Source of the DNA: Sulfurimonas sp.
GTDB taxonomy: Bacteria; Campylobacterota; Campylobacteria; Campylobacterales; Sulfurimonadaceae
DNA: 51,605 nt
Reading direction: 5' to 3'
Assembly (NCBI GenBank): GCA_016744115.1
Contig: JADGEZ010000008.1
Coordinates: 1 to 51,605 of the forward strand
A program made the position numbers and the translations under genes. Under the pieces are notes generated by a model. The model was given only the letters and a program-made list of their open reading frames with translations, searched no databases and was not told the origin of the DNA. This document shows positions 17,879 to 23,921 of this stretch, one piece after another. Position 1 is the first letter of the stretch. Each line of letters opens with the position of its first letter.

Positions 17879-18253
17879 TTATTTTGCAATAATATTGAAC
17901 TCAATATATTTAATATCTTCTTTAAATTCTTCACCATATTCTTGCATAGCTCCATCTTCAATATCATGAATCCAATTTACAATGATTTTATAACTTTCTT
18001 GTTCCTCAAGTAAATCAAAAATATCCAAAAGAACTTTAGAACTGCTACTATTAAAATAGACCAAGTCAAATATTAAAATAATTTCTACGTCACTAGCCCC
18101 TTTTAAGTATTCAACAATCCACTCAAATATTGGAAGATAAAATCGAGTACAGTTTTCAGGATATGATTCCCCTGCAACTTTTAAAATGTTTGTATCTGGG
18201 TTAAAGTCAATTGCTGGTGAACTTTTTGTTTTTTCTACTATTAATCTTTGCAT
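17879..18253 (-). CDS. siaC: SiaC-family (DUF1987) regulatory phosphoprotein
   Basis: A 124-aa cytoplasmic protein with the DUF1987 pattern: an early SPAIDFNP, the middle GESYPENCTRFYLPIFEWI, and the hallmark LVYFNSSSSKVLLDIF at residues 64-79. In Pseudomonas SiaC the corresponding YFNTSSSK carries the phosphorylated threonine (from memory); here the matching residue is Ser69. Family members act as anti-sigma-antagonist-like switches: the unphosphorylated form binds and activates a partner, SiaB-type kinase phosphorylates it, and SiaA-type PP2C restores it. It is the last gene of the six-gene operon, 15 nt after the SiaB-like gene. The likely partner here is the stalk of the HD-GYP protein, which is inference. 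Confidence 0.85.
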   Translation of the reverse strand: MQRLIVEKTKSSPAIDFNPDTNILKVAGESYPENCTRFYLPIFEWIVEYLKGASDVEIILIFDLVYFNSSSSKVLLDIFDLLEEQESYKIIVNWIHDIEDGAMQEYGEEFKEDIKYIEFNIIAK

Positions 18254-18268
18254 TTTGTTTTCCTTATT

Positions 18269-18808
18269 TTATATCACTACTTCTATCGAAAAAAATGAAT
18301 ACTCTTCATCAATTTTTTCAAAACTATACTTTAATGGTTGTGAAGATTTTCTTGCCATCTCAATAAAACCAATTCCAGCACCCTTACTCTCTTCATTGTC
18401 ATTTTGTTTACGCTTTTGTTTATATAACTCTTTTAATTCATCTTTATCCATTAAGACAAGGTCGTTAAGATTTGATTTAAGTATAGCCCCTTTTGATTTA
18501 CTTATTTTATTACCTCCTACGATAAAGTGTTTACCATCATTATTACCAATGACTATTATTCCTTTTCCAAAGTCAAATGATTTTTCACATCTCTCTTGAG
18601 AGTAATGAATAACATTTTGCACCTGTTCAATAAAAATAGAAAAAACTTTCATGGTTGTGGTAGTGTTCACTTCATCTATTTGCATTTGATTTTTAAGTGT
18701 TATACCTATACCCTCCACAATATCATGAGAAACTGGTCCACAAAAGGTAAAGATTATTCCCTCTTTATCAAGTGCCTCTTTATAACTATAAATACTATTT
18801 TTAAGCAT
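18269..18808 (-). CDS. siaB: SiaB-family protein kinase (GHKL-like, DUF6272)
   Basis: A 179-aa soluble protein with a Bergerat-type ATP fold in reduced form. The N-box is visible as FIEQVQNVIHYS (about 59-70, with Glu61 and Asn65). The G-box lies in KGAGIGFIEMAR near 142-153. There is no membrane segment and no phosphoacceptor histidine region, so it resembles anti-sigma-factor-type Ser/Thr kinases. Predicted to phosphorylate the SiaC-like protein encoded 15 nt downstream. It starts 9 nt after the HD-GYP gene. Position and size match SiaB of the Pseudomonas siaABCD operon. Confidence 0.8.
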   Translation of the reverse strand: MLKNSIYSYKEALDKEGIIFTFCGPVSHDIVEGIGITLKNQMQIDEVNTTTTMKVFSIFIEQVQNVIHYSQERCEKSFDFGKGIIVIGNNDGKHFIVGGNKISKSKGAILKSNLNDLVLMDKDELKELYKQKRKQNDNEESKGAGIGFIEMARKSSQPLKYSFEKIDEEYSFFSIEVVI

Positions 18809-18817
18809 CCTTTCTCC

Positions 18818-19645
18818 TCACTTAATTCTATTTTCTAATTTATTTTTCACATTAATAATCTCATCCAAATTAGAAAAAAATATATCTACCAACTTAGGCT
18901 CAAAATGCTTCCCTGATTCTTTTTTAATATAATTAAAAATCGAATCATTATCCCACGCTTTCTTATAGCATCTATCACTTCCTAAAGCATCAAATACATC
19001 TACTAGGGCAATAATGCGTCCATATATATGAATATTATCTCCTGACAAACCCCTTGGATATCCTGAACCATCCCAATTTTCATGATGTTCATGCGCAATG
19101 ATGGAAGCTGCTACTAAAAGAGGTCTATCTGAATCATTAATCATCTCATAGCCTAATTTCGCATGAGTTTTCATAATCTCAAACTCCTCAAAGCTTAGCT
19201 TGCTTGGTTTATTCAAAATTGCATCAGGAATTGCAATTTTACCAATATCATGCATGGGAGCTGCATGAAAAAGGAGATCAACCTCTCTTTCATTAAGCCC
19301 ATAATTTTTTCCAAGAATCTTTGCGTACCAAGAAACTCTTTGAACATGTAAGCCTGTTTCATTGCTTCTAAATTCAGCTATCGTGCCAATAGTAGAGAGA
19401 ACTTCTTTTTGTGTCCTCTCAACTTCATCATTAAGTTCTCTAATTTCATTTAATTTAATTTTAAGTCCATCATAATCTTTACGCTGAATTTTATCACCTA
19501 TTGTAAGAATTTTATTTAGCTTTTTATTGGCTTTTTTAAACTCTTTGAAAAGTTCCTTAATATCATCTTTTCTTGTATTTAAATCAATATCACTGTTAAT
19601 GATTTGTTCCATTTTTTTAATAATACTGTTATTATTTCCTGTCAT
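18818..19645 (-). CDS. HD-GYP c-di-GMP phosphodiesterase with N-terminal helical stalk
   Basis: Residues about 25-90 form a charged helical, coiled-coil stalk ([20 protein letters not shown]) that resembles the stalk of SiaD-type cyclases, to which SiaC binds. Residues about 95-260 form a complete HD-GYP domain: [10 protein letters not shown] with His131-Asp132 type metal ligands, [16 protein letters not shown], and [17 protein letters not shown]. Both the HD and GYP signatures are intact, so hydrolysis of c-di-GMP is expected. No receiver domain or membrane segment is present. It overlaps the phosphatase gene by 14 nt. Replacement of a GGDEF output by HD-GYP within a Sia set is the unusual point. 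Control of the stalk by SiaC is inference. Confidence 0.87.
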
Positions 19646-21164
19646 AAACTTCTCCTAAGTCTAAATAAACACCAAGCAATGTTCCATCATCTTTAGTTTC
19701 ACTCCTAGCCTTATAATTGCTAAATGCTTTTTGAAATAATTTAAGTTGCTCATAAAAAGGTTTTTTAAATACATCGCTTACTAATCTAACCAAGCGTTTT
19801 TTACCATAAAGAAAACCTTTCTCTCCTCCTGTTTGATCTAAGTAGCCATCAGTAGTAAGATACACACGAGTAGGCTTAAATAAATCTACTTTATGTTCTG
19901 TGTATTTATAGTCAATATCAGTTTTTTTATATCCAACTGACTGCTTATCCCCTTTTATGATTTGAAGCACATCATCTTGTACGACAAATAAAGGAGTTTG
20001 TGAGCCAGAAAATTTTAAAACTTTTTCTCTTTTATTTATATAAACAATCCCACCATCAAAGCCTGCATTTGATATAGAGTTTTTATCGTTTTGGTCTAGG
20101 AGTTTTTTCATATTTTTATTAAAATAATTCATTATTTTTGCTGGATTAATATCATAATCACTTTTAATCAACTTAGCTACTATCTCTTTTTCTATTGCTT
20201 TAACTAGCATAGTTACAAAAGCACCTGGAACACCATGACCAGTACAGTCAATTACCATAAGCAAAGCTTCATCTTCATGGCGTAATGTTTGAAAAAAGTA
20301 AATATCCCCACCAACAGTATCTTTTGGTTCCCATAAAACAAAAGAATCATTAAAAAATTTATCAATATTTTCTTTTTTAGGCAAAATAGCCTTTTGAATA
20401 TCTGCGGAATATTCTATAGAATCACGCGTTTGTTGATGAATTTCTTCTATCTTTTCATTTTGTGTTTGAACCTTGGCTAGCATGTTTGAAAAACCATCAT
20501 AAAGATATTTAAATTCATCATCATTTTCACACTCTACACGCATATCGTAGTGATTACTCCTAGCCACTAAATCCATAATATTTATGAGATTAAAAATTGG
20601 TCTAGTAAAAATTTTGTGTATTTTAAATGCTAAAAATACCAGTATAAATAGAGTCAAAATACTCACTACTGACATCATTTGCAACTCATCAATAACTTTT
20701 GACTTTAATTGTTCTGTATCTGAAATAATTTTCAAATGTCCTATAATATTTTCATTTAAAACAATTGGTACAGTTACTCCTATCTGATTCCAATCAAAAT
20801 GCTTGGTAGCAGTATCTAAAGGATTTAATAGCTTTTTTTCAATCTTAAAACTATTTTTATCAGAGACATAAGAGGCAAACAAATCATTTTGTAAATCATA
20901 AACTAATGCTACTTGAATATTTTTATTAATTGAAAGAGGTTGCAGTATATTTTTTGCACTTATTTCATCATCAAATGTTAAAGAAGCTGTAATATTTTCA
21001 CTACTAATGCGAGCTAATTGTGTTAAATTTGTTATAGAGTCTTGTTTTTGAAAACTCAGTATAGAAAAAGAAAATGAAATCATCGAAATAGACAAGGCTA
21101 TCATCGCGGACAAACTCAATAAAAATATTAATTTAGTGCGAATTGAAAAATTATTAAAATTCAT
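19632..21164 (-). CDS. siaA: Membrane PP2C (SpoIIE-type) phosphatase with CHASE8-like sensor and HAMP domain (SiaA-like)
   Basis: Domain order in 510 aa: TM1 about 12-36; periplasmic domain about 37-158 with the CHASE8-like pattern [20 protein letters not shown] and [17 protein letters not shown]2 about 165-182; HAMP about 183-235; linker; PP2C/SpoIIE domain about 265-505. Metal-binding aspartates are visible in VGGDIYF (Asp287), [13 protein letters not shown] (Asp306), LTTDGYLDQ (Asp439) and TKDDGTLLG (492/493). Predicted to dephosphorylate the SiaC-like protein in response to an envelope signal. CHASE8-HAMP is the sensor layout of the cyclase YfiN/TpbB, whose partner is YfiR, and a YfiR homologue is encoded two genes upstream. 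Overlaps the TonB receptor gene by 11 nt. Confidence 0.85.
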
Positions 21165-23406
21165 ACGAAGCCCTTACATAATAATAAGCACCATTATATC
21201 CAAAAGGTGAGTATTGAGAATATGCTAATCTGTCATTTGAACGATTTTTTTCTGGATAAGTATCGAATATATTTGTCCCACCTATTGCTAAGCGAGTTTG
21301 ATTAGATATTTTATAAGAAACATCTAAATCTGTACTCCATTGTGGTGAAAAAGTTTGTAGTTGAGAATTATATACATCGCTAAATTCTCCATACCTAGAT
21401 ATATTTAAAGCAACATTTACTGGGTCTAATTCATAGTTAAAATATAATTTAATATAATCTTTTGGTTGAGTGTTTTCTATTCTGTTTATCTCTTTCATCG
21501 AATCACTAATCCCTGTGGTATCATTAAAACTTAAAATCTTCGTTTTTGAATAAGAATAAGAAGCATTAATATTCAAGTTTGCATTATTTTTCAGTTTTGT
21601 TTCATACTTTATAGCTACATCTATACCTTGAGTTTTTGTATTAACTGCATTGGTAAAAAACCTTGCTATAGATTTTTCGCCATAGGGTATATTTCTTGTA
21701 ATCATTATTCTATCATCTATTTTTGTGTAGAAATAATCTGCACTCAGAGATAAATTATTTTGTATTTGGTAAACAAATCCTGAAGTGAAATGCAGAGACT
21801 CTTCTGCTTTTAACTCTTTTGCTCCTAAAGAAATTGCGAGTGGGTCACTTGTTCTTAGCGTATCTGTTTTACTTAAGTTATTTTGCGTGCCACTTATCCC
21901 TGTAGTACTAAACTGCGATTGAGATAAAGAGGGAGCATGAAAACCAGTACTTCCAGAAGCTCTTAAAAGTAATGAGTCTTTCACTCTATAAGAGAGAGAA
22001 AGCTTATAATCATTTGTTGCTCCAAAATCTGAATAATTCTCAAACCTTGTTGCTAATTTAAAACTAAAATCATTTATCTTTTTATCTATTTGCAAATAAG
22101 CTGCTATATTATGACGGTAGGAATCAACAACATTTTTGGGCTGGAAACCAGGAAAACCTTGAGCTCCAGCATTATTGCTATAGCCTCCATTTTTATAAGA
22201 AGCCTCATCTCCTGCTTTTATTGCAAAATTTTCATATCTAAACTCTAATCCCCCTGCAATATTAAAACTGCTAAATTTATGTCTCATATCAAGATTAGTA
22301 GTTGCTTGTAAAAAGCTAAGTCCACCGCTATCAAAAGATGTGGGAGAATTGAGCCCCATTGAGTTATTTAAAGAATCACGAACATAATAATGAAAAGAGT
22401 TATATCCTATCTTTTGGCTCAAATCCCAGCTAGTATTATTAGTAATTTCTCCATTAATACCGAGGGTTAAAGATGTATCATAAATTTTTGCATTTATCTT
22501 TGGTAAAAAACCATTTGGATAAATCTCAACATTATTCCTATTACTATTTGCGTCTCTATAAAATGCGTTATTTATACTATCTCTATAGTTAAAAAGAGCA
22601 TCCCCATAAATATTAATATCATTTTCTTGTGGACTTAAAATATTTAATGCTAAGGTAAAATTTTGAGATTTTGGCTGACCTAGAGGAGTATTTTCCCCTT
22701 CCCTTTCATGGTTGGTTCTTTGTCTGTCTTGTATAGATGCGGCAATGTTTACATATCCATCATAGTCTAGTGCAGTATAGTAAAATATATCCCCTTGGAT
22801 TGTATTACCACCACCATCAAGATTTGTACCGATTTTTGAGCTTACACTATTTTGGTGTCCATTTGCCTTAAGGATAATATTTATAACTCCAGCAATAGCA
22901 TCAGAACCATACTGTGCAGCAGCTCCATCACTAAGAATCTCTATGTGTTCTATCATAATCACAGGAATTATATTTAAATCAACGCCTGAACTTCCTTTAC
23001 CGATAGTTCCATAGAGATGAACGAGAGCAGAGCTATGTAGTCGTTTTCCATTTACGAGTACAAGTACTTGATCTGGATTCAAGCCTCTAAGAGTTCCAAC
23101 ACTTACATGATCAGATCCATCATTAATAGCTGGTGTTTGAGAATTAAATCCTGCAACAAAGTACTGTAATACCTTCGTTAATCTTTTTAAACCTGAGTTT
23201 TTAATCTGTTTGTTTGTAATAACCTTAATAGGAACATTTGAGTATAAAAAATCTCTACTTCCACTACGAGAACCGATATTAGCCTTAAGTTCAGTCTCTA
23301 CAGCAAAGAGTTCATCTAAGCTTTTTTCATAGAGTTCATTTGAAAATAAAGCTTGAGTAACAAGAAGAGAAAAAAGTTTTAGTTTTATGAATCTATAGTG
23401 CATCAA
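21154..23406 (-). CDS. TonB-dependent outer-membrane receptor in signalling operon
   Basis: A 750-aa protein with an N-terminal signal region ending near LFSNE. A plug domain at about residues 50-165 includes GTLRGLNPDQVLVLVNGKR and GSDAIAGVINII. A 22-strand-type barrel follows, ending in the aromatic YVRASYEF. It closely resembles general siderophore, cobalamin or organic-ligand receptors; the ligand cannot be read. It overlaps yfiR-like (4 nt) and the phosphatase gene (11 nt), so it is tightly tied to the signalling genes rather than to transport genes. No TonB, ExbB or ABC partner is near. It may act as a signal-capturing receptor for the YfiR/phosphatase pair, which is inference. The N-terminal SLDELFAVET may serve as a TonB-box region. 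Confidence 0.87.
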   Translation of the reverse strand: MMHYRFIKLKLFSLLVTQALFSNELYEKSLDELFAVETELKANIGSRSGSRDFLYSNVPIKVITNKQIKNSGLKRLTKVLQYFVAGFNSQTPAINDGSDHVSVGTLRGLNPDQVLVLVNGKRLHSSALVHLYGTIGKGSSGVDLNIIPVIMIEHIEILSDGAAAQYGSDAIAGVINIILKANGHQNSVSSKIGTNLDGGGNTIQGDIFYYTALDYDGYVNIAASIQDRQRTNHEREGENTPLGQPKSQNFTLALNILSPQENDINIYGDALFNYRDSINNAFYRDANSNRNNVEIYPNGFLPKINAKIYDTSLTLGINGEITNNTSWDLSQKIGYNSFHYYVRDSLNNSMGLNSPTSFDSGGLSFLQATTNLDMRHKFSSFNIAGGLEFRYENFAIKAGDEASYKNGGYSNNAGAQGFPGFQPKNVVDSYRHNIAAYLQIDKKINDFSFKLATRFENYSDFGATNDYKLSLSYRVKDSLLLRASGSTGFHAPSLSQSQFSTTGISGTQNNLSKTDTLRTSDPLAISLGAKELKAEESLHFTSGFVYQIQNNLSLSADYFYTKIDDRIMITRNIPYGEKSIARFFTNAVNTKTQGIDVAIKYETKLKNNANLNINASYSYSKTKILSFNDTTGISDSMKEINRIENTQPKDYIKLYFNYELDPVNVALNISRYGEFSDVYNSQLQTFSPQWSTDLDVSYKISNQTRLAIGGTNIFDTYPEKNRSNDRLAYSQYSPFGYNGAYYYVRASYEF

Positions 23407-23921
23407 TCATTTCCTTTAACAATCTTTGCGATTGAGAGTAGCCTTGAGCTTATTTTAAAATTTGGAGTATCTGTTACTTCATTATTTATTTTTAAACGAA
23501 TTTTTTGCGAAACGAAATAGAGTTGTATAACTCCACCTCTTTGTGCAAAACCTTTGTTTTCACTAATAGTAACTATAGAATTTTTTTGTGTATGTTTTAT
23601 AATAGCTTCTTGGTCTTTTTGAGAGTGTTTAGTTACATAAAGAATATGTGTAAATTCTATCTCTTGTATATTTTCTACATAGTTTATCTTAACAGGTTTG
23701 TTATGAATCTTTTTATCTTTATACAATATATCTAAATGAGAGTCAAAAGCATGGTTTTGAAACACTGTTATGATAAATTCTTTAGAAGTATCTTCTTTTT
23801 TCCATTTAATAAAATGCGAAACTTTTCCAATAACAACCGCCTTTAATTCATCCTCAGAACTTGCACCATACAAATTGGATAAAATAAACGATATTATAAA
23901 AATAAACTTAATAATTTGCAA
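23403..23921 (-). CDS. YfiR-family (DUF4154) periplasmic regulator
   Basis: A 172-aa exported protein. The signal peptide is about residues 1-19 (FIISFILSNLYGA). The mature part carries the YfiR pattern: AVVIGKVSHFIKWK near the start, TISENKGFAQRGGVIQLYF at about 118-136, then KINNEVTD and the closing FKISSRLLSIAKIV. In Pseudomonas, YfiR binds the periplasmic CHASE8 domain of the cyclase YfiN and holds it off. Here the CHASE8-bearing protein of the operon is a PP2C phosphatase. No cysteine is present, unlike the disulfide-bonded Pseudomonas protein. The start is TTG with a weak RBS and no alternative in frame. It is the first gene of the set, 21 nt after bcp. Confidence 0.83.
   Translation of the reverse strand: MQIIKFIFIISFILSNLYGASSEDELKAVVIGKVSHFIKWKKEDTSKEFIITVFQNHAFDSHLDILYKDKKIHNKPVKINYVENIQEIEFTHILYVTKHSQKDQEAIIKHTQKNSIVTISENKGFAQRGGVIQLYFVSQKIRLKINNEVTDTPNFKISSRLLSIAKIVKGND

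Follow-up and report, generated by a model that had tools for sequence, protein, structure and literature searches.

The six tightly packed genes on the minus strand from position 23921 to 17879 of the window, by which we mean the whole stretch of 51,605 nucleotides analysed here from a Sulfurimonas contig, probably form one pathway, and we would put this at a probability of about 0.65. An input from the cell envelope would reach a SiaA-like phosphatase, this phosphatase and a SiaB-family kinase would set the phosphorylation of SiaC, and SiaC would dock on the helical stalk of an HD-GYP protein and switch it. Dephosphorylated SiaC most likely docks on this stalk and so controls the breakdown of c-di-GMP.

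The layout was read from the list of open reading frames and from Pfam and NCBIfam matches; adjacent genes share 4-14 bases or leave gaps of 9-15 bases between them. The first gene, with a TTG start, codes for a YfiR/HmsC-like periplasmic protein (DUF4154; 23403..23921, on the minus strand like all features of the operon; PF13689 113 bits) and overlaps by 4 bases the gene for a TonB-dependent outer-membrane receptor (21154..23406; PF00593 and PF07715). The SiaA-like protein (19632..21164) consists of a CHASE8 periplasmic domain (PF17152, 56 bits, residues 45-146), a HAMP-like linker assigned by eye, and a SpoIIE-type PP2C phosphatase (PF07228, 57 bits against a cut-off of 25, residues 298-499); the SiaA model NF038263 matches over residues 156-499. 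Its gene overlaps by 14 bases that of the HD-GYP protein of 275 amino acids with its N-terminal helical stalk (18818..19645), which is followed by the SiaB-family Ser/Thr kinase (DUF6272; 18269..18808; NF038262 194.4 bits, cut-off 85) and the phosphoprotein SiaC (DUF1987; 17879..18253; PF09345 131.8 bits, cut-off 24.5; PDB 6kko and 7e6g at E 5e-15). HD-GYP, SiaB and SiaC lie in one common reading frame (17879-19645, minus strand) with stops and short linkers between them. Visual inspection of the translations shows elongation factor Ts and ribosomal protein S2 downstream of the operon. Among named records the window's SiaC is closest to those of Sulfurimonas MAGs or single cells (60-64% identity), and the gene order YfiR-TonB receptor-SiaA-HD-GYP-SiaB-SiaC is the same in four Sulfurimonas records (L071, L072, L074 and L077). 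The single-cell HD-GYP copy of L071 (5108-5952) is found in two frames (143 and 124 amino acids), which is either a sequencing error or a real break.

The operon resembles SiaABCD of P. aeruginosa (7e6g) in encoding a PP2C phosphatase, a SiaB-family kinase and SiaC together, and in that its c-di-GMP enzyme bears a SiaC-binding motif on the N-terminal helix, recognized in the window by sequence. It differs in its output domain, which is HD-GYP (HD_5) whereas that of SiaD is GGDEF, in the CHASE8 domain which SiaA has in place of the Pseudomonas N-terminus, in the presence of the TonB receptor and the YfiR-like protein, and in the phosphosite, which is Ser in the window's SiaC and Thr in P. aeruginosa. 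The window proteins score below the NCBIfam equivalog cut-offs (SiaA 236.9 bits against 700, SiaB 140.5 against 225 and SiaC 96.5 against 150). The parts of a SiaABC partner switch are all found: a SiaC domain, a SiaB-family kinase, a membrane PP2C in the operon and a Ser/Thr at the T68 position.

The mechanism we propose is the following. The TonB receptor and the YfiR-like protein would govern the CHASE8 sensor state of the SiaA-like phosphatase, as their co-occurrence and the YfiR/YfiN pair suggest. Judged by family membership SiaB would phosphorylate SiaC on Ser69 (18047..18049), the predicted phosphorylation site, which aligns with P. aeruginosa T68, and the SiaA-like phosphatase would remove the phosphate. 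Unphosphorylated SiaC would use its alpha2/alpha3 face and the loop with Ser69 to dock on stalk residues 42-59 of the HD-GYP protein, and phosphorylation of Ser69 would block this. Docking may hold two stalk helices as a parallel coiled coil and switch the HD-GYP dimer, most likely on, and an active phosphatase would then mean less c-di-GMP. There is one motif per chain and therefore two SiaC per HD-GYP dimer are predicted, not four.

The sign of the switch depends on what docking does. If SiaC activates the HD-GYP protein an active phosphatase lowers c-di-GMP, which is the reverse of Pseudomonas, and inhibition by docking would leave the Pseudomonas sign unchanged. It seems fair to infer that unphosphorylated SiaC activates the HD-GYP protein and inverts the Pseudomonas sign. 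The converse, that SiaC docks and inhibits, for instance by stabilizing an inactive coiled-coil register, so that c-di-GMP would still rise when the phosphatase is active, just as it does in Pseudomonas, we consider unlikely, while taking it seriously: the sequence can settle docking and not sign, the docking element is common to GGDEF, cyclase, kinase and PP2C outputs for which one sign need not hold, and stabilization of a coiled coil can activate as well as inhibit. Activation is, however, the simpler carry-over, HD-GYP proteins also working as dimers. Moreover, in the sole solved case SiaC builds the active SiaD dimer, according to the available text of PMC8457831.

In the AlphaFold2 model of the window's HD-GYP protein (pLDDT 79.6, pTM 0.70) a helix of residues 2-16 is followed by an unbroken helix of residues 22-89 (19379..19582) which runs towards the catalytic domain and has a block pLDDT of 83-94 over residues 31-80. 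The initial annotation had placed a helical stalk at about residues 25-90 and had likened it to the SiaC-bound stalk of SiaD; the model has a single helix there, and the likeness holds up, as residues 42-54 fit the docking motif in spacing and residue type and stalk profiles retrieve SiaD. The SiaD residues touching SiaC were taken from section 8 of PMC8457831 and were laid on the window's stalk by eye, gap-free, from an alignment. By this comparison the residue type is kept at 8 of 13 contact positions (R74>K42, K77>K45, V78>I46, I81>I49, D83>D51, R84>K52, Q86>Q54 and D91>D59, P. aeruginosa first) and changed at the other five (R80>T48, S82>G50, Y85>I53, M88>K56 and R90>Y58). The candidate SiaC-docking motif K42-Q54 (19484..19522) thus reads basic-x-x-basic-hydrophobic-x-x-x-[SGN]-D-[KR]-x-Q and lies inside the long helix. 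The change to be noted is G50, as the side chain of SiaD S82 bonds T68 of SiaC; the four Sulfurimonas relatives also have G here, and among 90 aligned stalks the position is G in 13 and S in 67. D83 and Q86 served as anchors in that alignment and their conservation there is therefore not counted as evidence. P. aeruginosa SiaD has two docking motifs in tandem whereas the window's HD-GYP has one, the second domain in the profile search having an E of 1.4. A regular expression for the motif, written after the HD-GYP stalks had been looked at, matched 23 times when run over 40 neighbourhoods with 1114 frames; shuffled sequences gave 1.2 matches per pass. A read-through model of SiaC with HD-GYP from another locus (L137; pLDDT 82, pTM 0.54) confirms the fold only and cannot show contact.

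The link to SiaD was found by profile searches. A profile of 17 stalks, taken only from HD proteins neighbouring SiaC and including no GGDEF protein, had as its best match among 177,635 PDB sequences residues 65-88 of SiaD (7e6g_A, E 6e-4), which is the docking motif. When 24 stalks from every output type were used, the match to 7e6g_A improved to E 1.3e-7 and the alignment spans SiaD's second motif too. Even a single 49-residue stalk of a class III cyclase has 7e6g_A as its best PDB match (E 0.023). The window's stalk as a lone query against the PDB did not find SiaD; only profiles do so. A profile of 61 stalks from non-HD partners, searched against the 217 frames of the window, placed the HD-GYP protein at the top (E 0.0061). 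When the non-HD profile was run against 29 HD proteins (Z 4000), 17 were found at E <1, nine above 1, and three were absent from the listing; it is weak on one HD-GYP subgroup, and the stalks therefore form at least two related subtypes. Docking of SiaC on the window's stalk, with the contact itself putative, is in our opinion well supported by these comparisons.

Stalk and SiaC also go together in genomes. Among 149 genomes of the order SiaC was matched in 25 (24 above the family cut-off) and the stalk in 20 at E 0.001, 19 of which also have SiaC (Fisher 7e-18); of the 124 genomes without SiaC a single one gave a stalk match, which is weak and incomplete (E 1.8e-4, 38 of 49 positions). In the phylum, with 298 genomes in a set that overlaps that of the order, SiaC was found in 13 (12 above cut-off) and the stalk in nine, all nine with SiaC and none among the 285 SiaC-free genomes. 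Because the stalk profile was trained on SiaC-adjacent genes and the training genomes are among the positives, the joint presence of stalk and SiaC is to some extent built in; the informative findings are that genomes lacking SiaC almost always lack the stalk as well, which the training does not build in, and the untrained cases. In one untrained case (G331) the stalk match begins 52 bases after the SiaC match, and when ten genomes of other groups were taken up by way of their named SiaC loci, eight had a stalk match at E 0.1. At the thresholds used, no stalk match was obtained in 6 of the 25 SiaC-bearing genomes of the order nor in 20 of 80 named SiaC loci. On the SiaC side the contact residues Y65, N67, S/T68 and S69 are present in all 81 aligned SiaC proteins, with Ser at the phosphosite in 80 and Thr in one; the window's SiaC has YFNSSSSK with Ser69, which fits Y-x-N-S/T-S. 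Covariation between SiaC and stalk (90 pairs) was not enriched at the known interface: this interface accounts for 7 of the 50 top-ranking column pairs, with 6.1 expected, as might be anticipated where it is nearly invariant.

The genome from which the window comes has two siaC genes, each beside or one gene away from a stalk HD-GYP. Its HD-GYP matches fill eight rows, of which two fall in a single frame, so that there are seven HD-GYP frames, and only two of these carry the stalk. There are also 19 GGDEF matches, and no protein beyond the two HD-GYPs has a stalk match at E 0.001; the docking element is therefore found here only on putative c-di-GMP-breaking enzymes. The second Sia operon (L031 3318-11402, on G000 contig 34) codes for a 1124-aa SiaA-like phosphatase with a periplasmic region like an amino-acid-binding protein, for SiaB and SiaC, for a 317-aa HD-GYP with the stalk RQDKIMLRSDQRQ after a highly charged N-terminus, and for an additional 890-aa PP2C protein. 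It could be argued that the stalk of the window's protein is an ordinary dimerization coil, that SiaC has another partner and that the HD-GYP gene is merely co-transcribed, and the failure of the lone stalk to retrieve SiaD, the null covariation and the loss of the S82 equivalent all point that way. An ordinary coil should hardly be nearly absent from SiaC-free genomes, however, nor missing from the genome's five other HD-GYP frames and from every other protein in it, and we find this explanation improbable.

The enzyme at the end of the pathway is a complete HD-GYP domain and a predicted c-di-GMP phosphodiesterase. Residues 90-252 match HD_5 with 109.2 bits against a cut-off of 27.2 (Pfam). 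The best PDB sequence match is 4mcw (PmGH, presumably from Persephonella marina), at E 2e-61 and with 104 of 237 aligned residues identical, and by its description 4mcw is a c-di-GMP phosphodiesterase with a trinuclear centre. The same entry comes first when the AlphaFold2 model is compared with the PDB by VIA-align (Z 22.0, rmsd 6.6, 223 residues). All eight positions which we take to be the metal ligands of 4mcw are present (E96, H100, H132, D133, H161, H187, H188 and D216), and DGSGYP is found at residue 192. The two proteins share these ligands and differ in what precedes the domain, which in the window's protein is only the stalk helix and a short helix; neither Pfam nor the AlphaFold2 model gave a further domain upstream. 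The complete output domain that the initial annotation had described is thus seen again in the HD_5 score, the eight ligand positions and the DGSGYP, and its combination of this domain with a SiaC-docking-like stalk, adjoining SiaB and SiaC, proved to be found in many genomes. SiaD was not among the 50 VIA matches listed for the model, which tests little because the HD domain fills that list. The HD-GYP protein was also considered as a relative of SiaD, and this was rejected: they have the docking helix in common and not the catalytic domain. That SiaC docks on a protein whose main substrate is not c-di-GMP but, for example, 3'3'-cGAMP, which would make the operon not chiefly a c-di-GMP switch, could be read from the V. 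cholerae 3'3'-cGAMP phosphodiesterase 5z7c among the sequence matches (E 1.3e-33), and is rather improbable with a c-di-GMP phosphodiesterase as the closest solved relative by sequence and by model and with its metal ligands kept.

The input side recalls YfiBNR/TpbB of P. aeruginosa, with which the operon shares a YfiR-like periplasmic protein and a CHASE8-HAMP partner in the inner membrane. It differs in that the CHASE8 protein ends in a SpoIIE PP2C and not in GGDEF, and in that the outer-membrane gene codes for a TonB receptor, there being no YfiB gene in the operon. The DgcN/YfiN model NF007423 matches SiaA residues 18-244 with 75 bits. The same three input parts are found in the NF053590/NF053591/NF053592 cassette (TOL_0244 TonB receptor, TOL_0243 YfiR-like protein and YfiR-associated histidine kinase), from which the window differs in having the sensor fused to PP2C and not to a histidine kinase. 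All three window proteins score below the cut-offs of these models (55 bits against 645, 99 against 125 for the YfiR-like protein, and 130 against 194 for the YfiR-associated histidine-kinase model, which matches SiaA residues 7-233). Among 136 loci, 16 of which are only about 2-3 kb long so that input genes could be hidden there, all eight with a YfiR-like gene also have the TonB receptor and a window-like SiaA N-terminus, two (one genome counted twice) have the window-like SiaA only, and 126 have none of the three. Against PDB sequences the SiaA N-terminus gave no match and the YfiR-like protein two weak ones (E 0.35).

The general idea that a PP2C, a kinase and a STAS protein control a c-di-GMP turnover enzyme in this phylum has already been proposed: the available text of PMC9239204 (mBio 2022) suggests, from gene neighbourhoods and citing SiaABCD, that a periplasmic PP2C and a STAS kinase (stas_STYK) of Campylobacterota regulate such an enzyme via a STAS protein. 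The logic and the phylum are those of the window's operon; the difference is that this text, to which our comparison is confined with figure 4B and the tables outside it, gives no docking motif, stalk, HD-GYP partner or YfiR/TonB input. The available text of PMC8457831 suggests that DUF1987 proteins modulate adjacent proteins generally. In the literature searched, which included the accessible text of PMC7647112 and PMC12834913 and few subscription papers, preprints or supplements, SiaC was studied with a single target, SiaD, and we found no description of SiaC with an HD-GYP, of the docking helix on other enzymes or of YfiR with SiaA. The operon also joins an envelope input through YfiR and the TonB receptor to the dephosphorylation of a protein serine, a link not found in that literature.

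The stalk is not confined to c-di-GMP enzymes. Among 80 named SiaC loci from many phyla 60 hold a stalk protein at E <0.2 (65 proteins), and Pfam on 64 of the 65 gave HATPase_c in 24, GGDEF in 13, Guanylate_cyc in 13, HD_5 in 11 and SpoIIE in one. In the order, 40 stretches from 25 genomes (39 with a SiaC frame) gave a stalk match in 22, and in 15 of these the stalk is borne by an HD protein, namely 12 HD-GYPs like that of the window and three HD_5 proteins of about 450 residues. Sixteen further loci of the genus have a stalk protein in 14 cases, nine of them HD-GYP, where two of the nine rows are apparently the same gene and one is apparently from the organism of L071 (identical stalk and scores). 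The pairing with HD-GYP is therefore recurrent and not peculiar to the window. On balance, and with somewhat more confidence than an even bet would express, we think that the docking helix, some 13 residues long, is a portable element which SiaC recognizes and which evolution has placed ahead of catalytic domains of five types or more (GGDEF, HD-GYP, class III cyclase, histidine kinase and PP2C), so that one Ser/Thr partner switch could drive almost any output; in the window the TonB receptor and YfiR would act through CHASE8-PP2C on c-di-GMP destruction, with a sign opposite to Pseudomonas, and some neighbourhoods (L058 and L061) would have two targets per SiaC. With such a recognizable helix finding SiaC targets becomes a sequence search, targets are predicted in many phyla, and it can be cleanly tested whether the making and the breaking of c-di-GMP are both open to a single adaptor.

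In L058 (5262-6188 and 6178-6987) and L061 (7122-7928 and 7958-8884) an HD-GYP and a histidine kinase with stalks are found in one SiaC neighbourhood, which suggests one SiaC with two targets. The stalk ahead of a class III cyclase (Guanylate_cyc) in L042 (1926-2927), L085 (6881-8104) and L136 (6970-8028) suggests SiaC control of cyclic nucleotide synthesis. Short stalk-bearing PP2C (SpoIIE) proteins near SiaC in L037 (3036-3911) and L098 (855-1847) are candidate docking targets or feedback elements. A 77-residue protein with little beyond the stalk (L034 8397-8630) adjoins a PAS-GGDEF stalk protein and might compete for SiaC or act as a decoy. Finally, in SiaC-bearing genomes stalk matches are also found away from the fetched SiaC-locus contigs (G024:C40, G024:C89, G004:C129 and G030:C8), and these are candidate targets in trans.
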